From Actinomycetota bacterium (GTDB taxonomy: Bacteria > Actinomycetota > Rubrobacteria > Rubrobacterales > Rubrobacteraceae): a stretch of 52,611 nucleotides of DNA. The translations under genes were made by a program, and so were the position numbers. The notes below the pieces were generated by a model, which searched no databases, was not told where the DNA came from, and saw only the letters and a list, made by a program, of their open reading frames with translations. Where the stretch lies: NCBI GenBank assembly GCA_004563715.1, contig SIRX01000169.1, positions 1 through 52,611 on the forward strand, in the 5' to 3' direction. Positions 12,254-22,217 of this stretch are shown in pieces; the stretch's first letter is position 1, and each line of letters begins with the position of its first letter.

Positions 12254-14396
12254 CGGCTTCGGAGAGCCCGCGGCGCTCTACCGCCCGCAGCTTCCCGATA
12301 GAACGACCCTCCCGGACCTCCGTGGGCAACCCGTCACCGGGTTGCCGGGTGTCGGGCCAAAGATCGAAAAGGCCCTAAAGGACCTCGGCATAGGTTCTCT
12401 GGCGGACCTCGTCTCGCACTACCCCTCCCGCCACGAAGACCTCTCCAACGTAAAGAGGATCTCCGACCTCCGCGTGGGCGAGAAGGCTACGGTGGTCGGA
12501 AGGGTGGTCAAGACGAAGCCGGTCGGCCGGCCGGTCCGGGGCCGCTCGCCGGGTTTCTCGGTACAACTCTACGACGGCACCGGCTACATCCCGGCGGTCG
12601 TCTGGGGCCGGCAGTGGCTCGCGGGCCTGCTCGTTCCCGAAACGATGGTGCTCGTCTCCGGCGAAGTGCAACGGCGCTACGGCATACAGCTTGCCGCCAA
12701 GACCGTCGAGGTTGTCGACGATCCGGACACCGTGCAAGACAACGCCCACGCGGGCCGGTTCGTCCCCGTGTACCCGGTAAACAAGAACATCCAGGCACGC
12801 CGGATGCGGACCTTGATCCACCGCGCCCTCGATGAGGCCGGCCACGTCCTGGACCCGCTGCCCGCGGAGGTGCTCTTCCGGCACAATCTGGTGAGCCTGG
12901 ACGAGGCGATCCGGGAGGTCCACTTCCCAACCGCCCGTCCGGCGCTGAGGCAGGCCCTGCGGCGTCTGGTCTTCCACGAGTTGTTCTTGATACAGACCGG
13001 GCTCGCGGCCCGCAAGGCGCGGCTGGAGCGGACCGAGGCTGGCCGCAGCCACAGGGGCGACGGCAGCCTGCTGAACCCGTTTATCAAGGGCTTGCCCTTC
13101 GGCCTCACGGGTGCCCAGGAGCGGGTGATGGAGGAGCTTCTCGCCGACCTGCGGGCCGAGAAGCCGATGCGCCGGCTGGTGCAGGGCGACGTGGGGAGCG
13201 GTAAGACGGTGGTGGCCGTCGCGGCCCTGCTATCTGCTGTAGAGTCCGGTGGTCAGGGGGCGCTCATGGCCCCGACCGAGGTTCTCGCCGAGCAGCACTA
13301 CCTCTCGGTCTCCGGGGCGCTGGAGAACCTGCCGGTCAACGTCGTGCTGCTGACCGGATCGCAGGGCGCGGCGGAGCGGCGGGCGGCGCTGGAGCAGGTG
13401 CGGAGCGGCGCGGCCCACGTCGTCATCGGGACGCACGCCCTGATCCAGAAGGCGGTCGAGTTCCGGGACCTCTCGCTGGTGGTCGTGGACGAGCAGCACC
13501 GGTTCGGGGTGAGCCAGCGGACGGTCTTCAAGGAGAAGGGCGCCGCGACGCCGGACACGCTGGTCATGACCGCGACGCCCATACCCCGGACGCTCTCGCT
13601 CACGCTCTACGGCGACCTGGAGGTCTCGGTCATCGACGAGCTACCGCCGGGCCGCAAGCCGGTCGAGACCCGGATGGTGGACCTCTCCGGGCGCGACGAG
13701 GCTTACGAGGCGGTGCGGAACGAGCTGGAGGAGGGCCGGCAGGCGTACGTGATCTGCCCGCTGGTAGAAGAGTCCGAAGCGCTGGAGGACGTGCGGGCGG
13801 CGGAGGAGCTGTTCGAGGAGCTGGCCGGGGAGATCTTCCCGGACCGCCGGGTCGGCCTGCTGCACGGTCGCATGAAGGCCCCCGAGAAACGGGAGGTGAT
13901 GGCGGCGTTCCGGGCCGGGGAGATCGAGGTCCTGGTCGCCACCGTGGTGGTCGAGGTGGGCGTGGACGTGCCGAACGCGAGCGCCATCGTGATCGAGGGT
14001 GCCGAACGCTTCGGCCTCTCGCAACTCCACCAGCTCCGGGGGCGGGTCTGCCGGGGCCTGCACCCTCCGAAGTGCTACCTGGTCGGGGACCCCAGGACCG
14101 ATGACGCCCGCAGCCGCCTCGAAGCCCTCTGCGAGCTGCAGGACGGCTTCAAGCTCTCGGAAGTAGACCTCACCATCCGGGGCGAGGGCACCCTCTTCGG
14201 CAGCCGCCAGAGCGGTATGCCGGACCTCAAGGTAGCCAAGCTGCTGCGCGACATCGAGGTGCTGGTGGAGGCCCGTAAGGAGGCTTTCGGGCTCGTGGCG
14301 AAGGACCCCACGCTTAAGAGCCCCGTCCACCGCCCGTTGCGTCGCGAGGTGCGGGAGCTGCTCGGCGCGAATGTCGAGTGGCTCTTCCGGGAGTAG
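12234..14396 (+). CDS. recG: ATP-dependent DNA helicase RecG
   Basis: A superfamily 2 helicase that regresses stalled replication forks and processes branched recombination intermediates. Features in order: N-terminal helix-hairpin-helix-like region (GLPGVGPKIEKAL), wedge/OB domain (about 60-200), Walker A GDVGSGKT, motif II with DEQH, motif III TATPIPRTL, motifs IV-VI, and the RecG-specific C-terminus with GSRQSGMPDLK. Motif VI reads QLHQLRGRVCRG, with Cys606 replacing the usual Gly. I start at ATG 12234 (720 residues); GTG 12201 is in frame and cannot be excluded. It overlaps fakB and is overlapped by or abuts rsmD. Confidence 0.95.
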   Translation: MAWPTSSGFGEPAALYRPQLPDRTTLPDLRGQPVTGLPGVGPKIEKALKDLGIGSLADLVSHYPSRHEDLSNVKRISDLRVGEKATVVGRVVKTKPVGRPVRGRSPGFSVQLYDGTGYIPAVVWGRQWLAGLLVPETMVLVSGEVQRRYGIQLAAKTVEVVDDPDTVQDNAHAGRFVPVYPVNKNIQARRMRTLIHRALDEAGHVLDPLPAEVLFRHNLVSLDEAIREVHFPTARPALRQALRRLVFHELFLIQTGLAARKARLERTEAGRSHRGDGSLLNPFIKGLPFGLTGAQERVMEELLADLRAEKPMRRLVQGDVGSGKTVVAVAALLSAVESGGQGALMAPTEVLAEQHYLSVSGALENLPVNVVLLTGSQGAAERRAALEQVRSGAAHVVIGTHALIQKAVEFRDLSLVVVDEQHRFGVSQRTVFKEKGAATPDTLVMTATPIPRTLSLTLYGDLEVSVIDELPPGRKPVETRMVDLSGRDEAYEAVRNELEEGRQAYVICPLVEESEALEDVRAAEELFEELAGEIFPDRRVGLLHGRMKAPEKREVMAAFRAGEIEVLVATVVVEVGVDVPNASAIVIEGAERFGLSQLHQLRGRVCRGLHPPKCYLVGDPRTDDARSRLEALCELQDGFKLSEVDLTIRGEGTLFGSRQSGMPDLKVAKLLRDIEVLVEARKEAFGLVAKDPTLKSPVHRPLRREVRELLGANVEWLFRE

Positions 14397-14397
14397 G

Positions 14398-15456
14398 GTG
14401 CGCGTCGTAGCCGGGACGGCCCGCGGGCGGAGGCTCGGCAAGGTCCCGCCGGGCGTGAGGCCCACCGCCGACTGGGTGCGTGAGAGCCTGTTCAACGCCC
14501 TGGGTCAGTTCTTCGACGGCGGCGAGGTGCTCGACCTCTACGCGGGGACCGGGGCGCTCGGTATCGAGGCTCTCAGCCGCGGCTTCGGGCGGGCGGTCTT
14601 CGTGGAGAAGGACCGTCGGGCTGCCGCCGCGATAAGGGGAAACCTGCGGCTCACCGGTTTCGAGCACCGGTCCGAAGTCGTGCGGGGCGACGTAAAAACC
14701 GTGCTGGAAAGCCTCATCCGGCAGCGCCGCTCGTTCCGTTTGATATTGCTCGACCCGCCATATAGAATCGCGGCCACGGAGACGGGGGAGGTGCTCCCGT
14801 GCCTGCGGGCTCTGCTCGCGCCCGGAGGGCGGGTCGTGGTGGAGAGCGGCGGCGTTCCGGCAGACGGCGTACTGAACGGCAAGAGAGGAAACGAGCGGCG
14901 ATACGGTGGCACGTCGGTACACATATTCGAGAGGTCCGAGTTTTTCATGAACGTCGCCGTCTGTCCCGGCAGCTTCGACCCCGTCACCGCGGGCCACGTG
15001 GACATAATCCGGCGGGCGGCCGGGATCTTCGACCACGTCGTGGTGGCTGTGGGTGGAAACCTCCGCAAAAGGCCCACGTTGTCTTCGGCCGAACGGGCGC
15101 GCCTCCTGGAGAAGGTCACCGGCGACATGGAGAACGTCACGGTCGAGGTAATGGGTGGCCTTCTGGTAGACTTCGCCCGGGAACAGGGCGCGCGGGTGAT
15201 CGTCAAAGGTCTGCGAGCCGTCTCGGATTTCGAGCTGGAGTTCGAGCAGGCGCAGCTCAACAGGAACCTGTATCCTGAGCTGGAGACGGTGTTCATAATG
15301 TCGGCGGCGGAGCACAGCTTCCTCTCGTCGAGCGCGGTCCGGGAGATCGCGAGCCTCGGCGGGGACGTGCGGGGCCTGGTGCCGGAGGCCATACTGGAGA
15401 CCGTGCGCGAGCAATATTCGGGCGTCGCGCGGGGCGAGTTAGAGGACAAAGGATAG
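14398..15456 (+). CDS. rsmD-coaD: in-frame fusion of 16S rRNA m2G966 methyltransferase (RsmD) and phosphopantetheine adenylyltransferase (CoaD)
   Basis: One uninterrupted frame of 352 codons joins two enzymes normally encoded separately. Residues 1-183 are RsmD: MRVVAGTARGRRL, PTADWVRESLFNAL, the SAM loop LYAGTGALGIEAL and catalytic DPPY, which methylates 16S rRNA G966. From residue 184 on it is CoaD: CPGSFDPVTAGHVDII with the T-x-G-H nucleotide motif, KGLRAVSDFELEF and SSSAVREIASLGGDV, the penultimate enzyme of CoA synthesis (EC 2.7.7.3). No stop separates VHIFERSEFF from the CoaD methionine. The GTG at 14398 gives the family N-terminus; ATG 14371 is an alternative. The protein could be a true fusion, or CoaD could also start at 14947. 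Confidence 0.85.
   Translation: MRVVAGTARGRRLGKVPPGVRPTADWVRESLFNALGQFFDGGEVLDLYAGTGALGIEALSRGFGRAVFVEKDRRAAAAIRGNLRLTGFEHRSEVVRGDVKTVLESLIRQRRSFRLILLDPPYRIAATETGEVLPCLRALLAPGGRVVVESGGVPADGVLNGKRGNERRYGGTSVHIFERSEFFMNVAVCPGSFDPVTAGHVDIIRRAAGIFDHVVVAVGGNLRKRPTLSSAERARLLEKVTGDMENVTVEVMGGLLVDFAREQGARVIVKGLRAVSDFELEFEQAQLNRNLYPELETVFIMSAAEHSFLSSSAVREIASLGGDVRGLVPEAILETVREQYSGVARGELEDKG
14947..15456 (+). CDS. coaD: CoaD module, possible independent translation from an internal ATG
   Basis: The ATG at 14947 is exactly where a free-standing CoaD would begin, and the resulting 169-residue protein has the normal CoaD length (about 160). AGAGG lies about 12 bases upstream, a long spacing, so initiation there would be weak. 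It is listed separately because the cell may make CoaD alone as well as, or instead of, the RsmD-CoaD fusion. The sequence cannot decide between these. Confidence 0.5.
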   Translation: MNVAVCPGSFDPVTAGHVDIIRRAAGIFDHVVVAVGGNLRKRPTLSSAERARLLEKVTGDMENVTVEVMGGLLVDFAREQGARVIVKGLRAVSDFELEFEQAQLNRNLYPELETVFIMSAAEHSFLSSSAVREIASLGGDVRGLVPEAILETVREQYSGVARGELEDKG

Positions 15457-15462
15457 GTTCGG

Positions 15463-15918
15463 ATGGACGTACTGGTACTCATAGACAGGCTGGAGGAGCT
15501 GGTCGAGGAGGCGAGGAGCTTTCCGGGGTTCGGAAACACGGCGATGGTCGACCGGGACGCCGCCTTCGACGTGATAGACCAGATGCGCCAGACCATTCCC
15601 GAGGAGCTCAAGCAGGCGCGCTGGATCGTCAAGGAGCGCCAGGCGATGCTGGACGAGGCCCGCAGCGAGAGCGACCGGATCGTGCGCCAGGCCCAGGAGG
15701 AAGCCGAGAAAATGGTCTCCGAGGAGCAGATCCTCAAGCGCGCCGAGCAGCGCGGCGCGGAGATCATGGAAGACGCCCGGCGGCGGGAGCGTGAGATCCG
15801 GCTCGGCGCCGAGGACTACGCCGACGACGTGCTGGCGAGCCTAGAGGACAACCTGGGCCGATTGCTGGAGGCCGTCCAGCGTGGCCGCTCCCAGCTACAG
15901 GGCGCCCCGGAGGAGTAA
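15463..15918 (+). CDS. SepIVA/DivIVA-like coiled-coil protein
   Basis: The 151-residue protein is almost entirely helical and charged. It has a short N-terminal region (LVLIDRLEELVEEARSF) and then a long heptad-rich coiled coil dense in Ala, Arg, Glu and Gln (ARSESDRIVRQAQEEAEKM, RRREREIRLGAEDYAD). This pattern matches the actinobacterial DivIVA-domain/SepIVA group, whose mycobacterial member acts in septation and polar envelope synthesis. That function is inferred from similarity of pattern, not from a diagnostic residue. It lies six bases after the rsmD-coaD stop with AGGATAGG before the ATG. Confidence 0.7.
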   Translation: MDVLVLIDRLEELVEEARSFPGFGNTAMVDRDAAFDVIDQMRQTIPEELKQARWIVKERQAMLDEARSESDRIVRQAQEEAEKMVSEEQILKRAEQRGAEIMEDARRREREIRLGAEDYADDVLASLEDNLGRLLEAVQRGRSQLQGAPEE

Positions 15919-15928
15919 AATAAGCAAC

Positions 15929-16384
15929 GTGAGCAAGGTCCTTCTCAAGCGCCCCGGCGTGGAGGTCGGGGAGAGCCGCGAGTACCAGGAGAGCTTCGAG
16001 GCGCGGCCGTTCGACCTCTACGGCCGTCACCACGAGGTTCTGCGGGCCGACGCCCGCGTCACCGTGACCCGCCTGGCCGAAGGGGTACACCTCGACCTGA
16101 GCGTCGCGACGGCGGTCGAGACCACCTGCGACCGGACCCTGGAGCCCTTCGAACTGCTGCTGGAGTTTGGGGAGTCGGAGTTTATCGCCGGCCCGGACGA
16201 CCGGGAGCTTGCGGTGCAGGATTGGACGTTGGACCTGACGCGGTATACTGAGCGGGCTCTGCCGAACGAGGTGCCCATGAAGGCGTGCGCGCCGGGCACG
16301 CAACCCATCGAACCCGAGGGCGCAGAAGACGAGATAGACCCGCGCTGGCGGGGTCTGAACCGCCTTTTCGCCTCGGGCTTCTAA
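15929..16384 (+). CDS. DUF177 (YceD-like) protein
   Basis: The 151-residue product has the DUF177 layout: an early [15 protein letters not shown] region, a beta-rich middle with [20 protein letters not shown] and [12 protein letters not shown], and the C-terminal [11 protein letters not shown]. YceD proteins are encoded beside rpmF across bacteria and influence 23S rRNA in E. coli and plants. The C-terminal Cys motif usual in the family (CxxLCPxCG) is missing here and replaced by an acidic linker. I chose GTG 15929, 13 bases after GGAGGAG, because the family similarity starts soon after it; a frame open from 15881 overlaps the previous gene. Confidence 0.8.
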
Positions 16385-16419
16385 CAAACCTTTACAGATA
16401 CGCAACAGGAGGTAGTGAG

Positions 16420-16605
16420 ATGGCAGTACCAAAGAAGAAGACTTCCCGAGCCCGCCGCGACCAGCGCCGGGCGCACCACGCCCTGCGCCGCCCGAACCTG
16501 ACGGCCTGCCCCACGTGCGGGGCGCCGCAAATGTCGCACCGCGTGTGCCTGGAGTGCGGAACTTACAAGGGGCGCAACGTGGTAGCCGTGGAGGCCGTGG
16601 AGTAG
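16420..16605 (+). CDS. rpmF: 50S ribosomal protein L32
   Basis: A 61-residue L32 starting [20 protein letters not shown], the family's basic N-terminus, followed by a complete zinc ribbon with Cys30, Cys33, Cys43 and Cys46. The ATG at 16420 has AGGAGG at 16407-16412, an optimal site. The DUF177-rpmF-plsX order is one of the most conserved in bacteria and links ribosome assembly with lipid synthesis. Confidence 0.97.
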
Positions 16606-16643
16606 ATCCGGGTCCGGCCTCGAACTACTCCACGGCGTATCGC

Positions 16644-17651
16644 GTGCGGATCTCGGTAGACGCCCTCGGCGGGGACCATGCGCCGGACGAGGTCGTCGCG
16701 GGTACGCTGGACGCCGCCCGGGCGCTGCCGGGGGACGAGTTTTTTCTCGTTGGAGACCGCGACCTCGTAGAGCCCCGCGTAGGGCCTGACGCCCCGCAGA
16801 ACGTCCACCTCCGGGACGCCTCGGGCGCCGTGGGCATGGACGAGGACCCGGCGGCCGCGCTGCGGTCGCGGCCGGAGGCGAGCATCGGTGTCTGCGCGCG
16901 GATGGTGCGGGCCGGCGAGGCCGACGCGCTGTTCTCCGCCGGAAATACCGGGGCCACGGTGGCGGCGGCCCTGCTCGGCGTCGGGCGTCTCAAGGGCTGC
17001 CGCAGGCCTGGAATCGCGACGGTGCTACCGTTTCCGTCGCCGGTGCTGCTCGTAGACGCCGGGGCGACCACGCAGTGCCGCCCGCAGGACCTGCTCAACT
17101 TCGCTATCCTGGGGAGCGTGTTCGCCAAGAAGTTTTTTCGTTTGCCAGCGGCGGCGCGGGTGGGCCTGATCAACGTCGGCGAGGAGCCGGGGAAGGGGAA
17201 CGACCTGACGAAAGAGGCGCACGGCCTGATCCAGAGTGCCGAACCGCTGCGCTTCGTGGGCAACGTCGAGGGGCGGGACATCGGGCACGGGGTCGCCGAC
17301 GTGCTCGTCACCGACGGCTTTACCGGCAACGTAGTCCTCAAGACCGCCGAGGGCGTTGCGGCCGAGATCTTCGACATGATCCGGGGTGCCGTCACCGCTG
17401 GCCTCGTGAGCCGCGTCGCGGCCGGCGTCCTGCGGCCCCGCCTCCGCGGCGTCCGGGACCAGGTCGACCCGGAGAACTACGGGGGCTCCTTCCTGCTCGG
17501 CGTCCGGGGATCGGTCGTGATCGGTCACGGCAACTCCCGCGCGCGAGGCGTGGATAACGCCCTGCGCGGCATCTCGTCCACCGGCTCCGGCCTCGCGGAC
17601 GCCCTCGAAGCCGCGCTTGCCGGGGCCGACCCTCGCGAGGAGGCCCGGTGA
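16644..17651 (+). CDS. plsX: phosphate acyltransferase PlsX
   Basis: Makes acyl phosphate from acyl-ACP (EC 2.3.1.274), the acyl donor for PlsY at the start of phospholipid synthesis; acyl phosphate is also the product of a FakA/FakB pair such as the one upstream. The 335-residue protein begins [12 protein letters not shown], contains [43 protein letters not shown] and [16 protein letters not shown]. The canonical DVGANVDC segment is DAGATTQC here. The GTG at 16644 gives the right N-terminus but has no clear ribosome-binding site. The stop overlaps fabH (GTGA). Confidence 0.94.
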
Positions 17652-18595
17652 ACAACGCGCCGGTCGGAGAGATCATCGGGGTCGGGCGGGCGCTCGGGAG
17701 CTGGTTGGTGACCAACAAAGACCTCTCGCGCACCCTCGACACGGATGACGCCTGGATCTCCTCCCGCACCGGCATAAAGCAGCGGCACTTTGTCGGTGAG
17801 AACGAGAACTGCGTGACGCTGGCCGTGAACGCCTCGAAAAAGGCCCTCGAAGACGCCGGGGTCGAGGGGCGTGACATAGACCTCGTCCTCTGCGCCACCT
17901 CTACCGCCCCGGAGTCCATGCCGTCGGTCGCCTGCCTGGTGGGCGAGGCCGTCGGCGCACCGGGGGTGGGGGCGATGGACCTCGCTGCGGCCTGCGCGGG
18001 CTACACCTACGCCGCCTCGGTCGCCGACGCTATGCTCCGCTCCGGGGTTGCCGGCCGCGTGCTGCTCATCGGGGCGGACGCCATGACGGCCATCGTGGAC
18101 CAGAACGAGCGCTCCACGGCGGTTCTCTTCGGCGATGGGGCGGGGGCGGTCGTCCTGGAGAAGGGTGACGGCACGTCGGGTTTCGTGGACCACCTGCTGG
18201 GGGCCGACGGCGGGGGCGCCCCGCTCGGGCGCGCCGGACACCCCGGCGACGAGCACAAGCTCTACCAGAACGGGCGCGAGGTCTTCAAATTCGCCGTAAA
18301 AGTCTTTCCCGAGATGGTCGAGAAGCTCGTGGCGCGCAACGGTATCTCGCTGGAGGACGTGCAGTACATAATCCCGCATCAGGCAAACGCACGCATAATA
18401 CACGCTGCGGCGCGCAAGCTGGAGGTGCCGGAGGAGAAGATCGTGGTGAACGTGGACCGCTACGGCAACACCTCGGCGGCGAGCATCCCGATCTCCTACC
18501 CGGACATCCGCGGCACGTTCGAGCCGGGGAAGTACGTGATAACCGTGGGGTTCGGTTTCGGGCTCGCCTGGGCGGCGAACCTGTACAGGATCTAG
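17648..18595 (+). CDS. fabH: 3-oxoacyl-ACP synthase III (FabH)
   Basis: Starts fatty acid synthesis by condensing an acyl-CoA primer with malonyl-ACP (EC 2.3.1.180). The thiolase fold carries the full triad Cys116 ([11 protein letters not shown]), His244 ([10 protein letters not shown]) and Asn274 ([10 protein letters not shown]). At 315 residues it has family length. Specificity for acetyl or branched primers cannot be told. The GTG start overlaps the plsX stop by four bases. Confidence 0.95.
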
Positions 18596-18619
18596 ACAGC
18601 AGTTTAGGGAGGGGGATAG

Positions 18620-19447
18620 TTGGCGGTACGCAGGGCGGTGGTGTTTCCCGGCCAGGGATCGGCTGGAGGCGAGTTCTCGGGGACGGTTCGGGAGGCGGTG
18701 GAGAGGGCCGTGGGCGACGGAGAGGTCCCGTACCAGCTCGCGGTCTTCGCCCGATCCGTACAGTTGCTGGGCGAGCTTAGGGAGACCGGCGTGGAGCCGG
18801 ACGTGGTGGCGGGACACTCGCTCGGGGAGTACGCCGCGGCGTACGCCGCCGGGAGCCTCGGGCTGGAGGACGGCGTGCGGCTCGTGGCCGAGCGCGACCG
18901 GCTCATGAACGAGGCGTCGGAGGAGAACCCCGGCGGGATGGTCGCGCTCATCGGGGCCGAACCGCGGGATGTGGCCGAAGCCGCTCGCACCGTGGGCGAA
19001 GGCGGCGGTGTCGTCGTGGCGGCCAACTTCAACACCCCGCGGCAGACCGTGATCTCCGGCGACCCCGCGGCCGTCGAGGCGGTCGCCGGGCGCGTGCGGG
19101 GCAAGGCCGTGAAGCTGGAGGTGGCGGGCGCGTTTCACTCGCCGCTCATGGCGGAGGCCGCCGGCGGGATGGAATACCTGCTCTCCGGCGCGGAGTTCGA
19201 GGACCCGCAAATACCGATGATCTCCGCTATGGACGGGGCGGTGCTGGCGACGGCGGAGGACGTGCTGACGGCGCTGCGGCGGCAGATGCTCTCGCCGGTG
19301 AGGTGGGTGGCCGTGGTCGAGCGGCTGGCGGACCTCGGCGTCGAGGAGGTGGTCGAGGCCGGCGACGACGGTACGTTGGTCCGCATGTTGAGGGACTTCA
19401 AAGACCTGGGCCTGACGGGGCGGCGGGCGAAGGAGGTGCTCGCGTGA
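18620..19447 (+). CDS. fabD: malonyl-CoA:ACP transacylase (FabD)
   Basis: Transfers malonyl groups from CoA to ACP (EC 2.3.1.39). The 275-residue protein has the family start VVFPGQGS, the nucleophile elbow GHSLGE with Ser67, and the partner His173 in AGAFHSPLM. It is about 30 residues shorter than E. coli FabD, mainly between the FPGQGS strand and the nucleophile, where the helical linker is reduced. The TTG start has GGAGGGGG six bases upstream. It is followed directly by fabZ through a GTGA overlap. Confidence 0.94.
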
Positions 19448-19884
19448 AGCTCGGGCCGATGGAGATCCGGGAGCTTATTCCTCACCGGTACCCGTTCCTG
19501 CTGGTGGACCGGATCGAGGAGCTGGAGCCCGGCGTCCGGGCCGTGGGCCTCAAGAACGTCACCCAGAACGAGCCGTTCTTCGAGGGCCACTTCCCCGACT
19601 ACCCGGTGATGCCGGGGGTCCTGATCGTGGAGGCGATGGCCCAGGTCGGGGCGGTGGGCGTCATGGTGAAAGAGGAGTACCGGGATAAGCTCGCGCTCTT
19701 CGCCGGGATAGACGGCGTGCGCTTCCGGCGGCAGGTGGTGCCGGGCGACACGCTCAGGATGGAAGTGGAGATAGAGCGTCTCAAGGGCCGGGTCGGCCGC
19801 GGCCGCGGCGAGGCCACGGTGGCGGGCGAGCGGGTCTGCGAGGCTAGCCTGATGTTCGCGTTCGCCGAGAAGGGGGAGAGATGA
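19444..19884 (+). CDS. fabZ: 3-hydroxyacyl-ACP dehydratase FabZ
   Basis: Removes water from 3-hydroxyacyl-ACP in the elongation cycle (EC 4.2.1.59). The 146-residue hot-dog-fold protein starts [21 protein letters not shown] and has catalytic His49 in [13 protein letters not shown] and Glu63 in IVEAMAQ. The GTG at 19444 overlaps the fabD stop (GTGA) and gives the family N-terminus. The 3' end overlaps fabG (ATGA). Confidence 0.95.
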
Positions 19885-20627
19885 TAGAAGCCGGAAGGGT
19901 GGCGGTCGTCACGGGCGGTGGCCGGGGTATCGGGCGGGCCATAGCCGCCCGGCTCGCCCGGGAGGGTGCCAACGTGGCCATCTCCTACCGCTCCAACGAC
20001 GGAGCCGCGGAGGAGACCGCCGCGCTGGTCCGGGAGGCGGGCGTCGAGTGCGGGATCTTTAAGGGTGACGTGTCCTCCGCCGAGGATGTGGAGGCCGTGT
20101 TCAAGGGCGTCAGCGAGACCTTCGGGCGGCTGGATATCCTCGTCAACAACGCGGGCCTCACGCGGGACAACATCATGCTGCGGATGAAGGAAGACGAGTT
20201 CGACGAGGTGCTGCGGACCAACCTCAAGGGTACGTACCTGTGTACGCGGGCCGTGTTGCGGAGCATGGTGCGGGCGCGGTGGGGCCGGATCGTGAACATA
20301 AGCTCCGTCGTGGGGCTCGTCGGGAACGCCGGGCAGGCCAACTACGCGGCGTCTAAGGCTGGGATCATCGGGTTTACCAAGAGCGTGGCCCGGGAGGTGG
20401 CCCAGCGTGGCATCACGGCCAACGTCGTGGCCCCGGGGTACGTGGAGACGGAGCTAACCGGTGTGCTCTCAGAGGAGATAAAACAGCAGATCCGGGACCA
20501 GATACCGGCTGGCAGGATCGGGGAGCCGGAAGAGATCGCCGGAGCCGTGGCCTTTCTCGCCGGGGAAGAGGCGGGCTACGTCACCGGACAGACGTTGGCG
20601 GTAGACGGCGGGATGGTTATGCAATAA
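19881..20627 (+). CDS. fabG: 3-oxoacyl-ACP reductase FabG
   Basis: NADPH-dependent reductase of the elongation cycle (EC 1.1.1.100). The 248-residue short-chain dehydrogenase has the cofactor loop [12 protein letters not shown], the NNAG motif and the catalytic set Ser142, Tyr155 and Lys159 (YAASK), plus the C-terminal [10 protein letters not shown]. The ATG overlaps the fabZ stop by four bases. Confidence 0.95.
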
Positions 20628-20638
20628 TGCGATCTGGG

Positions 20639-20668
20639 TTACACTACGCGCTATCCCTATTGTAGGAT
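20639..20668 (+). promoter_or_regulatory. candidate promoter for acpP-fabF
   Basis: TTACAC (20639-20644) and TAGGAT (20663-20668) lie 18 bases apart in the 82-base gap after fabG. ACP is needed in large amounts, so an extra internal promoter is plausible. Confidence 0.35.
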
Positions 20669-20709
20669 GGTCAACTTAAAGACCTTGGAGAACGAAGAAG
20701 GAGCCTGAC

Positions 20710-20955
20710 ATGGACAGGGAAGAAATTCTGGAGAAGATCCGCGAGATAACCGCCGACCGTCTCGGGGTCGACGAGGGCGACGTGACCCCCGAAGCATCCT
20801 TCCGGGAGGACCTGGAGGCGGACTCGCTGGACCTCGTGGAGCTCATCATGGAGCTCGAGGAGCAGTTCGGCATGGAGATCCCGGACGAGGAGGCCGAGAA
20901 GATCACCACGGTCGAAGAAGCCGTAGACTACGTGGCGGAGCACCAGGCCGCGTGA
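20710..20955 (+). CDS. acpP: acyl carrier protein
   Basis: The 81-residue acidic four-helix protein carries growing acyl chains on phosphopantetheine attached to Ser39 in the [10 protein letters not shown] motif. The pantetheine arm derives from CoA, whose synthesis involves CoaD encoded upstream. AGAAGGAG lies just before the ATG. The stop overlaps fabF by four bases (GTGA). Confidence 0.97.
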
Positions 20956-22217
20956 CCGCGGAGTTGCCAGAAGAGAACCGGGGCGGCAACGGGCACGCCC
21001 TAATTACCGGCACCGGGGCCGTCACGCCCATCGGCACCGGTACCGACAACTTCTGGGACGCGGCGCTGCACGGCAAGAGCGGCATCGGGGAGATAACCCT
21101 CTTCGATCCCTCGCCGTTCCCGTCGCACATCGCCGGTGAGTGCTCGGACTTCGATCCCACCGACTTCATGTCCAAAAAAGAGGCCCGGCGAATGGACCGC
21201 TACGCCCAGTTCGGCATCGCGGCCGGCATCCAGGCCGCGCACAGCGCGGGGATCGTAGACCTGATCCGGGAGCGGCCCGAACGGGTCGCCATCGTTATCG
21301 GCAGCGGCATTGGCGGCCTCTCTACCTGGGAGCGGGAGTGCCGGGTGCTCAACGAGCGGGGCCCGGGACGCGTTAGCCCGTTCCTCATAACCATGATGGT
21401 CCCGAACATGGCCGCGGGGCAGCTCGCGATCATGCTCGGCGCCACGGGCCCGACCCAGTGCCCGGTGCTGGCCTGCGCCACCGGCGGCGAGGCGATAGCC
21501 GAGGGACTGGAGCTGATCCGGCGCGGCGATGCCGACGTGGTCATAGCGGGATCGGCGGAGGCCCCGATCACGCCGCTTTCGATGGCGGGGTTCTGCGCCA
21601 TACGCGCGATCTCCACCCGCAACGACGAGCCTCACCGGGCGAGCCGGCCTTTTGACGCCGACCGCGACGGCTTTGCGATGAGCGAGGGCGCCGGGGCCGT
21701 GGTGCTCGAAAGCCCGGAGCACGCCGAACGGCGCGGCGCCGAGCCGATTGCCGCCGTGGCCGGCTACGGCCGCTCGACGGACGCCTACCACGTTACCGCC
21801 CCGGACGAGCAGGGGCGCGGCGTGGAACGGGCCATGCGCCTCGCCCTCGCCGACGCGGGCCTCGAAGCCGGAGACGTGGGGCACGTCAACGCCCACGCCA
21901 CCTCTACCCCGACCGGCGACGGACCCGAGACGAAAGCCATCGCGCGGGTCATGCCCCAGGCGGCGGTGTCGGCGACCAAGTCCATGACGGGCCACTCCTT
22001 CGGCGCGGTAGGCGCCACGGAGGGCATCATGTGCGCCCTGGCCCTCAAACACGAGGTCTTGCCGCCGACGATCAACCTCGAAAACCTGGCGGAGGATTGC
22101 GAAAAGCTGAACTACGTGGAGGACGAGCCGAGAGAAGCGCCGGGATTGAAAGCCGCTATCTCGAACTCGATGGGCTTCGGGGGACACAACCTCGTGGTAG
22201 CTTTCACAACGGTGTAG
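20952..22217 (+). CDS. fabF: 3-oxoacyl-ACP synthase II (FabF)
   Basis: Elongating condensing enzyme (EC 2.3.1.179). The 421-residue protein has the triad Cys175 ([13 protein letters not shown]), His315 and His348 with Lys343 in [14 protein letters not shown]. Two neighbourhoods differ from the usual sequence: NAHGTSTPxND reads [11 protein letters not shown], and the segment after the Cys reads GGEAIAEG rather than (S/T)HAIGDA. These suggest a divergent but active KAS II. It completes the cluster; no enoyl-ACP reductase gene is seen in the window. Confidence 0.94.

Follow-up and report, generated by a model that had tools for sequence, protein, structure and literature searches.

The genes for RsmD and CoaD form one uninterrupted reading frame in the 52,611-nt stretch of DNA analyzed here (the window), and the rsmD part of this frame contains a conserved promoter-like site. 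On balance, the locus appears to be a nested gene with two outputs, in which the RsmD-CoaD fusion is accompanied by a stand-alone CoaD that would arise from a putative internal promoter and start. As a novelty, the fusion by itself is modest; of greater interest is the promoter-like site conserved within rsmD, which was absent from the first-pass annotation.

RsmD and CoaD share one reading frame

The frame (positions 14398..15456, + strand) begins with GTG one base past the recG stop codon (TAG, 14394-14396) and extends for 352 amino acids to its first in-frame stop, TAG at 15454-15456. The end of RsmD, VHIFERSEFF, runs straight into MNVAVCPGSFDP, with the internal ATG at 14947-14949. We assigned positions 14398..14946 (+) to RsmD, the 16S rRNA m2G966 methyltransferase family, on the basis of the DPPY motif at residues 119-122 and matches to PF03602 (137 bits) and NCBIfam TIGR00095 (residues 2-179, 122.0 bits against a cut-off of 117.5, profile positions 13-193 of 194). 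Positions 14947..15456 (+) encode CoaD (phosphopantetheine adenylyltransferase), 169 amino acids long from the internal ATG, which matched NCBIfam TIGR01510 (residues 186-339, 189.5 bits against a cut-off of 103.3, profile positions 1-154 of 155). Both halves passed the curated NCBIfam cut-offs over near-complete profiles, and in the host genome (3.47 Mb, 99% complete, belonging to the family of Rubrobacter marinus) we found neither a second CoaD match nor another full-length RsmD match. The first-pass annotation had described a single frame with products of roughly 38 kDa for the fusion and 18 kDa for CoaD. Its coordinates proved to be exact, no stop interrupts the two full-length profile matches, and the computed masses were 38.2 and 18.3 kDa.

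The structure of the fusion was predicted as one single-chain AlphaFold2 model from 25 sequences, which displayed two folded domains connected by a short loose linker (residues 179-183), with a mean pLDDT of 77.4 and a pTM of 0.49. When this model was used in a structure search, the best 50 PDB matches listed were all CoaD, with CoaD TM-scores by target of 0.85-0.96; solved relatives exist for both the RsmD and the CoaD parts. CoaD is a hexamer. The titles of two PDB entries (8zn2 and 9iyg) reportedly describe an expression tag bound in CoaD, which suggests that an N-terminal extension may touch or affect the CoaD active site.

Fused and split borders among relatives

A match was found in 36 of 39 family genomes, and the three genomes without one were all incomplete (75-82%). 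We were able to read the junction in all 36 genomes with both genes, and it was fused in 30, including the Rubrobacter marinus chromosome (NZ_CP045121.1, 4,156,492 bp; L044/G023), and split in six. A comparison of related genomes for the same missing stop had been proposed earlier. Because 30 family genomes have the open frame in common, a sequencing or assembly error that hides a stop or a frameshift is excluded.

The split borders took several forms: a GTGA overlap in G008 and G019, following an RsmD end (ERSE) that resembles that of the window; a TTGA overlap in G016; a TGATG border in G010; and an in-frame TAG located 9 nt ahead of the CoaD ATG in G028 and 21 nt ahead of the CoaD start in G004. 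From the ERSE-like RsmD end to the CoaD start, the distance was mostly 6 nt and in some cases 9 nt in the fused genomes, compared with 5 nt in G008 and G019. Given this spacing, a single-base change could convert the GTGA overlap to a fusion or the reverse. The frame was maintained among the fused genomes despite their differences in junction length.

Outside the family, two fused frames (G346 and G224, from two other families) were found among those loci of the 396-genome phylum sample whose junctions were read, which were part of the total. Of the 44 named loci examined from other families, 37 contained both genes, and none of the 37 was fused. The G224 and G346 fusions are separate ones, each in a family of its own: at the G224 junction (L119), AGGAGG stands immediately upstream of the internal ATG, and G346 (L118) also has the promoter-like site described below. 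For G047 (fetched as L190), a fusion was suspected from equal open-frame lengths; no fused frame was found there, and the locus was left out of the counts, as were seven further loci fetched alongside it.

The history of the border was traced on a FastTree tree of 13 neighbor genes without rsmD-coaD (4185 columns; the two outgroups contributed 2 and 5 genes only). On this tree, no fewer than five switches between fused and split are needed, and the cheapest histories required 5 changes with a split root and 6 with a fused root. A tree built from RsmD and CoaD themselves had weak deep branches. G028 was placed within a fused genus (support with the nearest clade, 0.805), and because of this nested position its stop codon probably arose inside a fused frame. 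CoaD is essential in the bacteria studied, and G028 for this reason suggests that CoaD can start at the internal ATG; re-initiation after the stop could be an alternative source of CoaD. Most likely, fusion has been gained and lost through small indels or point changes at a once-overlapping gene border. The repeated fusion and splitting speaks against a strict need for coupling between ribosome maturation and CoA supply. Physical coupling of the two had been claimed earlier, and what would speak for it is the shared frame, with no support beyond this.

The alternation of fused and split states within one conserved gene neighborhood, together with the loose linker in the model, might also mean that the two separate proteins are what matters. 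The fusion would then be an inert by-product or be cleaved, and CoaD would be obtained by internal initiation or processing. The viability of E. coli rsmD null mutants, as given in the accessible part of one report (PMC6411480), agrees with such an arrangement. However, we found no cleavage site, and 25 fused proteins preserve the RsmD motifs unbroken, which indicates that the RsmD portion of the fusion is under selection. We accordingly give this explanation little credence.

A promoter-like site within the rsmD codons

A sigma70-type consensus scan, performed without prior knowledge of the site, yielded one hit where 0.2 were expected. This sole promoter hit, TTGATA-17 nt-TAGAAT (10 of 12), lies in rsmD at 14740..14768 (+) and ends 178 nt upstream of the CoaD ATG; mRNA would be expected to start at approximately 14775. 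The spacing of its -35 and -10 hexamers is within the 16-18 nt criterion for sigma70/SigA, and we refer to it as a putative promoter. The region from approximately -213 to -180 relative to the CoaD ATG has weaker structure than the junction, its third-position G+C ranks with the lowest in the frame, and the scan hit coincides exactly with this low-structure stretch.

The pattern TTGAT[AC] and TATA[GA]AAT at 17-nt spacing was present in all 36 family genomes, fused and split alike. Codon choice at the site departs widely from that in the remainder of these ORFs, whose third codon positions are 81% G+C. Leu was encoded by TTG in 36/36 (12.8% in the remainder), Tyr by TAT in 36/36 (17.4%), and the following residue was Arg AGA in 34/36 (4.0%) or Lys AAA in 2/36 (29.9%). 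We compared third bases among 25 of the 30 fused genomes, with three partial and two near-identical rows excluded, and found that only 8 of 337 columns were invariant. Four of these correspond to residues 114, 115, 122 and 123, which fall within the hexamers or just ahead of them. Among the third bases inside the two hexamers (115, 116, 122 and 123), three of four were invariant, for which the chance is approximately 3.5e-5 by hand arithmetic if columns are drawn at random.

In the window, a five-base-plus-hexamer pattern, made after the site had been seen, was found once. A phylum-wide search, also with a pattern designed post hoc with the site already known, detected it in 96 of 396 genomes, comprising the 36 family genomes and 60 from 18 other families; the reversed pattern gave no hits across the same 396-genome sample. 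We also searched for the motif LIFxDPP[YF][KR]I with the codons left open, and found it encoded in 56 outside-family genomes, 52 of which contained both hexamers; this count leaves out five outside rows with a differing translation (G325, G182, G332, G280 and G089). According to a hand count, these 56 genomes used TTG for Leu in 53, a Tyr or Phe codon ending in T in 56, and AAA or AGA for Lys or Arg in 55. Of the 60 outside-family genomes with the site, 41 had coaD placed, and in every one of these coaD followed the site on the same strand. Since only 4 of the 56 outside-family loci then at hand carried it, the promoter-like site does not appear to be a general feature of rsmD-coaD.

The TTGATA-TAGAAT block overlies the catalytic LIxxDPPY motif, and it might be kept through the protein motif and codon preferences alone, without being a promoter. 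Many of the pattern-bearing families may favor A+T-rich codons, and the accessible part of a study of intragenic promoters (PMC4591121) indicates that coding limits can underlie conserved intragenic sites. However, with third positions this rich in G+C, the bases at 114, 115, 122 and 123 are invariant while their neighbors vary; in other families, the TARAAT hexamer is retained where Tyr is replaced by Phe; and the spacing is the canonical 17 nt. We consider an explanation by coding constraint alone to be very improbable.

Sequence features at the putative internal CoaD start

The putative translation start region of CoaD (14917..14949, +) is marked by the ATG at 14947, weak RNA structure and, in relatives, low third-position GC. 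The internal start codon was ATG in 25 of the 30 fused genomes and GTG in 2; in the other three, the usual ATG is lost (G035, AAG; G009, ACC; G007, ATA), and TTG, TTG and ATG occur one or two codons upstream. An in-frame start codon was present at the junction or no more than two codons away in all 30 fused genomes, compared with a baseline of 19% for three-codon stretches elsewhere.

RNA openness was computed in 40-nt windows. At positions -18 to -3, the mean values for fused genomes were -5.2 to -6.3 kcal/mol, against a baseline mean over 335 positions of -10.9 kcal/mol (s.d. 2.5). The z value of the opening at -12 was 1.56 for the 30 fused genomes, 1.47 for the 6 split genomes and 0.73 for 54 loci outside the family. 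The rsmD start (window position 14398) has no RNA opening in relatives, in contrast to coaD.

The Thr codon ahead of the CoaD start was ACA in 14 of 21 cases, compared with 19 of 406 elsewhere, a count that is not independent given that 8 of the 14 came from one genus. Mean anti-Shine-Dalgarno pairing was -5.66 at the fused internal ATG, -4.86 at other ORF codons, -6.35 at rsmD starts and -7.58 at split coaD; pairing at the fused internal ATG is near background, which counts against internal initiation. In the putative leader, ATG is avoided only slightly (0.83 vs 1.16), likewise a point against. On the tree, the start column changed 5 times, compared with 13 at -2, 7 at -1, 12 at +2 and 5 at +3. 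Changes of the start residue are fewer than at -2, -1 and +2 but not than at +3, which would count against an internal start. We rejected a leaderless mRNA beginning at the CoaD ATG, as inspection by eye of the printed junctions revealed no -10-like element 7-12 nt upstream.

The loss of the usual ATG in three genomes and the weak ribosome-binding site accord with the possibility that CoaD is made solely as the RsmD-CoaD fusion, a true bifunctional enzyme tying 16S rRNA methylation to CoA synthesis. So do the lack of a stop in 30 of the 36 family genomes, the preservation of frame across junctions of different length, and the predicted model, in which a short loose linker joins two folded domains. 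On the other hand, all 36 genomes have the promoter-like site between the RsmD and CoaD starts, the junction retains both an in-frame start codon and the opening in the RNA, and the border changed state repeatedly, with one stop present within a fused genus. Moreover, we know of no common pathway for the RsmD and CoaD activities. We regard production of CoaD as the fusion only as unlikely.

Two possibilities had been offered for this frame at the outset, a fusion or an additional CoaD from ATG 14947. The fusion follows from the frame itself, and the second product is favored by sequence features, namely the site in 36/36, the start codon in 30/30, an RNA opening as pronounced as in the split relatives, and the G028 stop.

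A proposed model with two outputs

In the two-output explanation that we prefer, a long mRNA running through recG would be translated from GTG 14398 into the 38 kDa RsmD-CoaD protein, because no stop lies between rsmD and coaD; provided that rsmD is translated to its end, the fusion follows from the sequence. The putative promoter at 14740-14768, which shares its bases with codons for the catalytic motif LIxxDPPYRI, would give rise near 14775 to a second mRNA that lacks the RsmD start. From this short mRNA, 18 kDa CoaD would be translated from ATG 14947, followed by rpmF-plsX-fab. Fused species might then contain CoaD hexamers bearing zero to six RsmD domains. Because CoaD would have its own promoter and start, a fused or a split border would be of little consequence to the cell. 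A dual output of this kind fits both the conservation of the hexamers and the start-like features around the internal ATG.

On the same strand, 3' of coaD, a yceD-like gene (below the Pfam cut-off), rpmF, plsX, fabH, fabD, fabZ, fabG, acpP and fabF occupy positions 15881..22217 (+), and these genes are a possible further load of the putative internal promoter, if they are co-transcribed. With CoA and fatty acid genes downstream on the same strand, this promoter would serve both apart from recG and rsmD. The FabD-like frame (18620-19447) aligns to the acyltransferase profile from approximately position 62, and its N-terminal part seems short. Next after coaD, ahead of yceD, is a conserved 151-aa protein of no known family (15463..15918, +), which had no Pfam or NCBIfam match. 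It was detected in 35 of 39 fetched regions with a mean identity of 85%, above that of RecG (77%).

A more far-reaching and rather speculative possibility, which we think has a slim chance of being correct, is that the RsmD catalytic-motif codons have been the promoter of CoA and lipid genes since before the divergence of the 19 families in the phylum sample, with rsmD as the permanent host. In Rubrobacteraceae, the border would then have dissolved, and mixed, RsmD-bearing CoaD hexamers, with a ratio depending on two promoters, would link CoA supply to 16S methylation.

Should the promoter prove real, it would be a deep-rooted example of regulatory DNA harbored by catalytic-motif codons, and it would help to explain why rsmD stays ahead of coaD. 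The same border, which occurs in fused, overlapping and stop-separated forms, constitutes a natural series upstream of an essential enzyme and allows the cost or gain of gene fusion to be tested. In addition, annotation of the frame as a single bifunctional enzyme may overlook the main CoaD product.

Comparison with known systems

Searches of the open-licence full-text literature listed no paper whose title or abstract deals with an RsmD-CoaD fusion or with an rsmD-internal coaD promoter, and no map of Rubrobacter transcription starts was among the papers listed. The accessible part of PMC6411480 describes rsmD and coaD as neighbors, and that of PMC3946193 lists a promoter of its own for each of E. 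coli rsmD and waaA-coaD. Separate adjacent rsmD and coaD genes, the common bacterial order, have the same families, order and strand as the window; they are found with short overlaps or gaps in the 6 of 36 split family genomes and in nearly all outgroup loci read, whereas the stop between the genes is absent in the window. Translationally coupled pairs overlap at GTGA or ATGA borders, and exactly such a GTGA border is present in G008 and G019. The fused genomes, in contrast, differ in border length and have no termination there, and coupling by re-initiation is therefore impossible in them. Genes with an in-frame internal start that yields N-terminal proteoforms have reportedly been found (PMC11005335), and these likewise have one frame, two starts and a shorter C-terminal product; here, unlike in those genes, the second start would yield a whole enzyme in its own right. 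Finally, according to the accessible part of PMC4591121, E. coli has conserved intragenic sigma54 promoters from which the next gene is transcribed behind a long 5' UTR. These promoters resemble the rsmD site in lying inside the upstream gene, in their conservation between species and in the long leader, but the rsmD site, as a putative promoter, is sigma70-like, is located in catalytic-motif codons and was detected across 19 families in a sample of one phylum.
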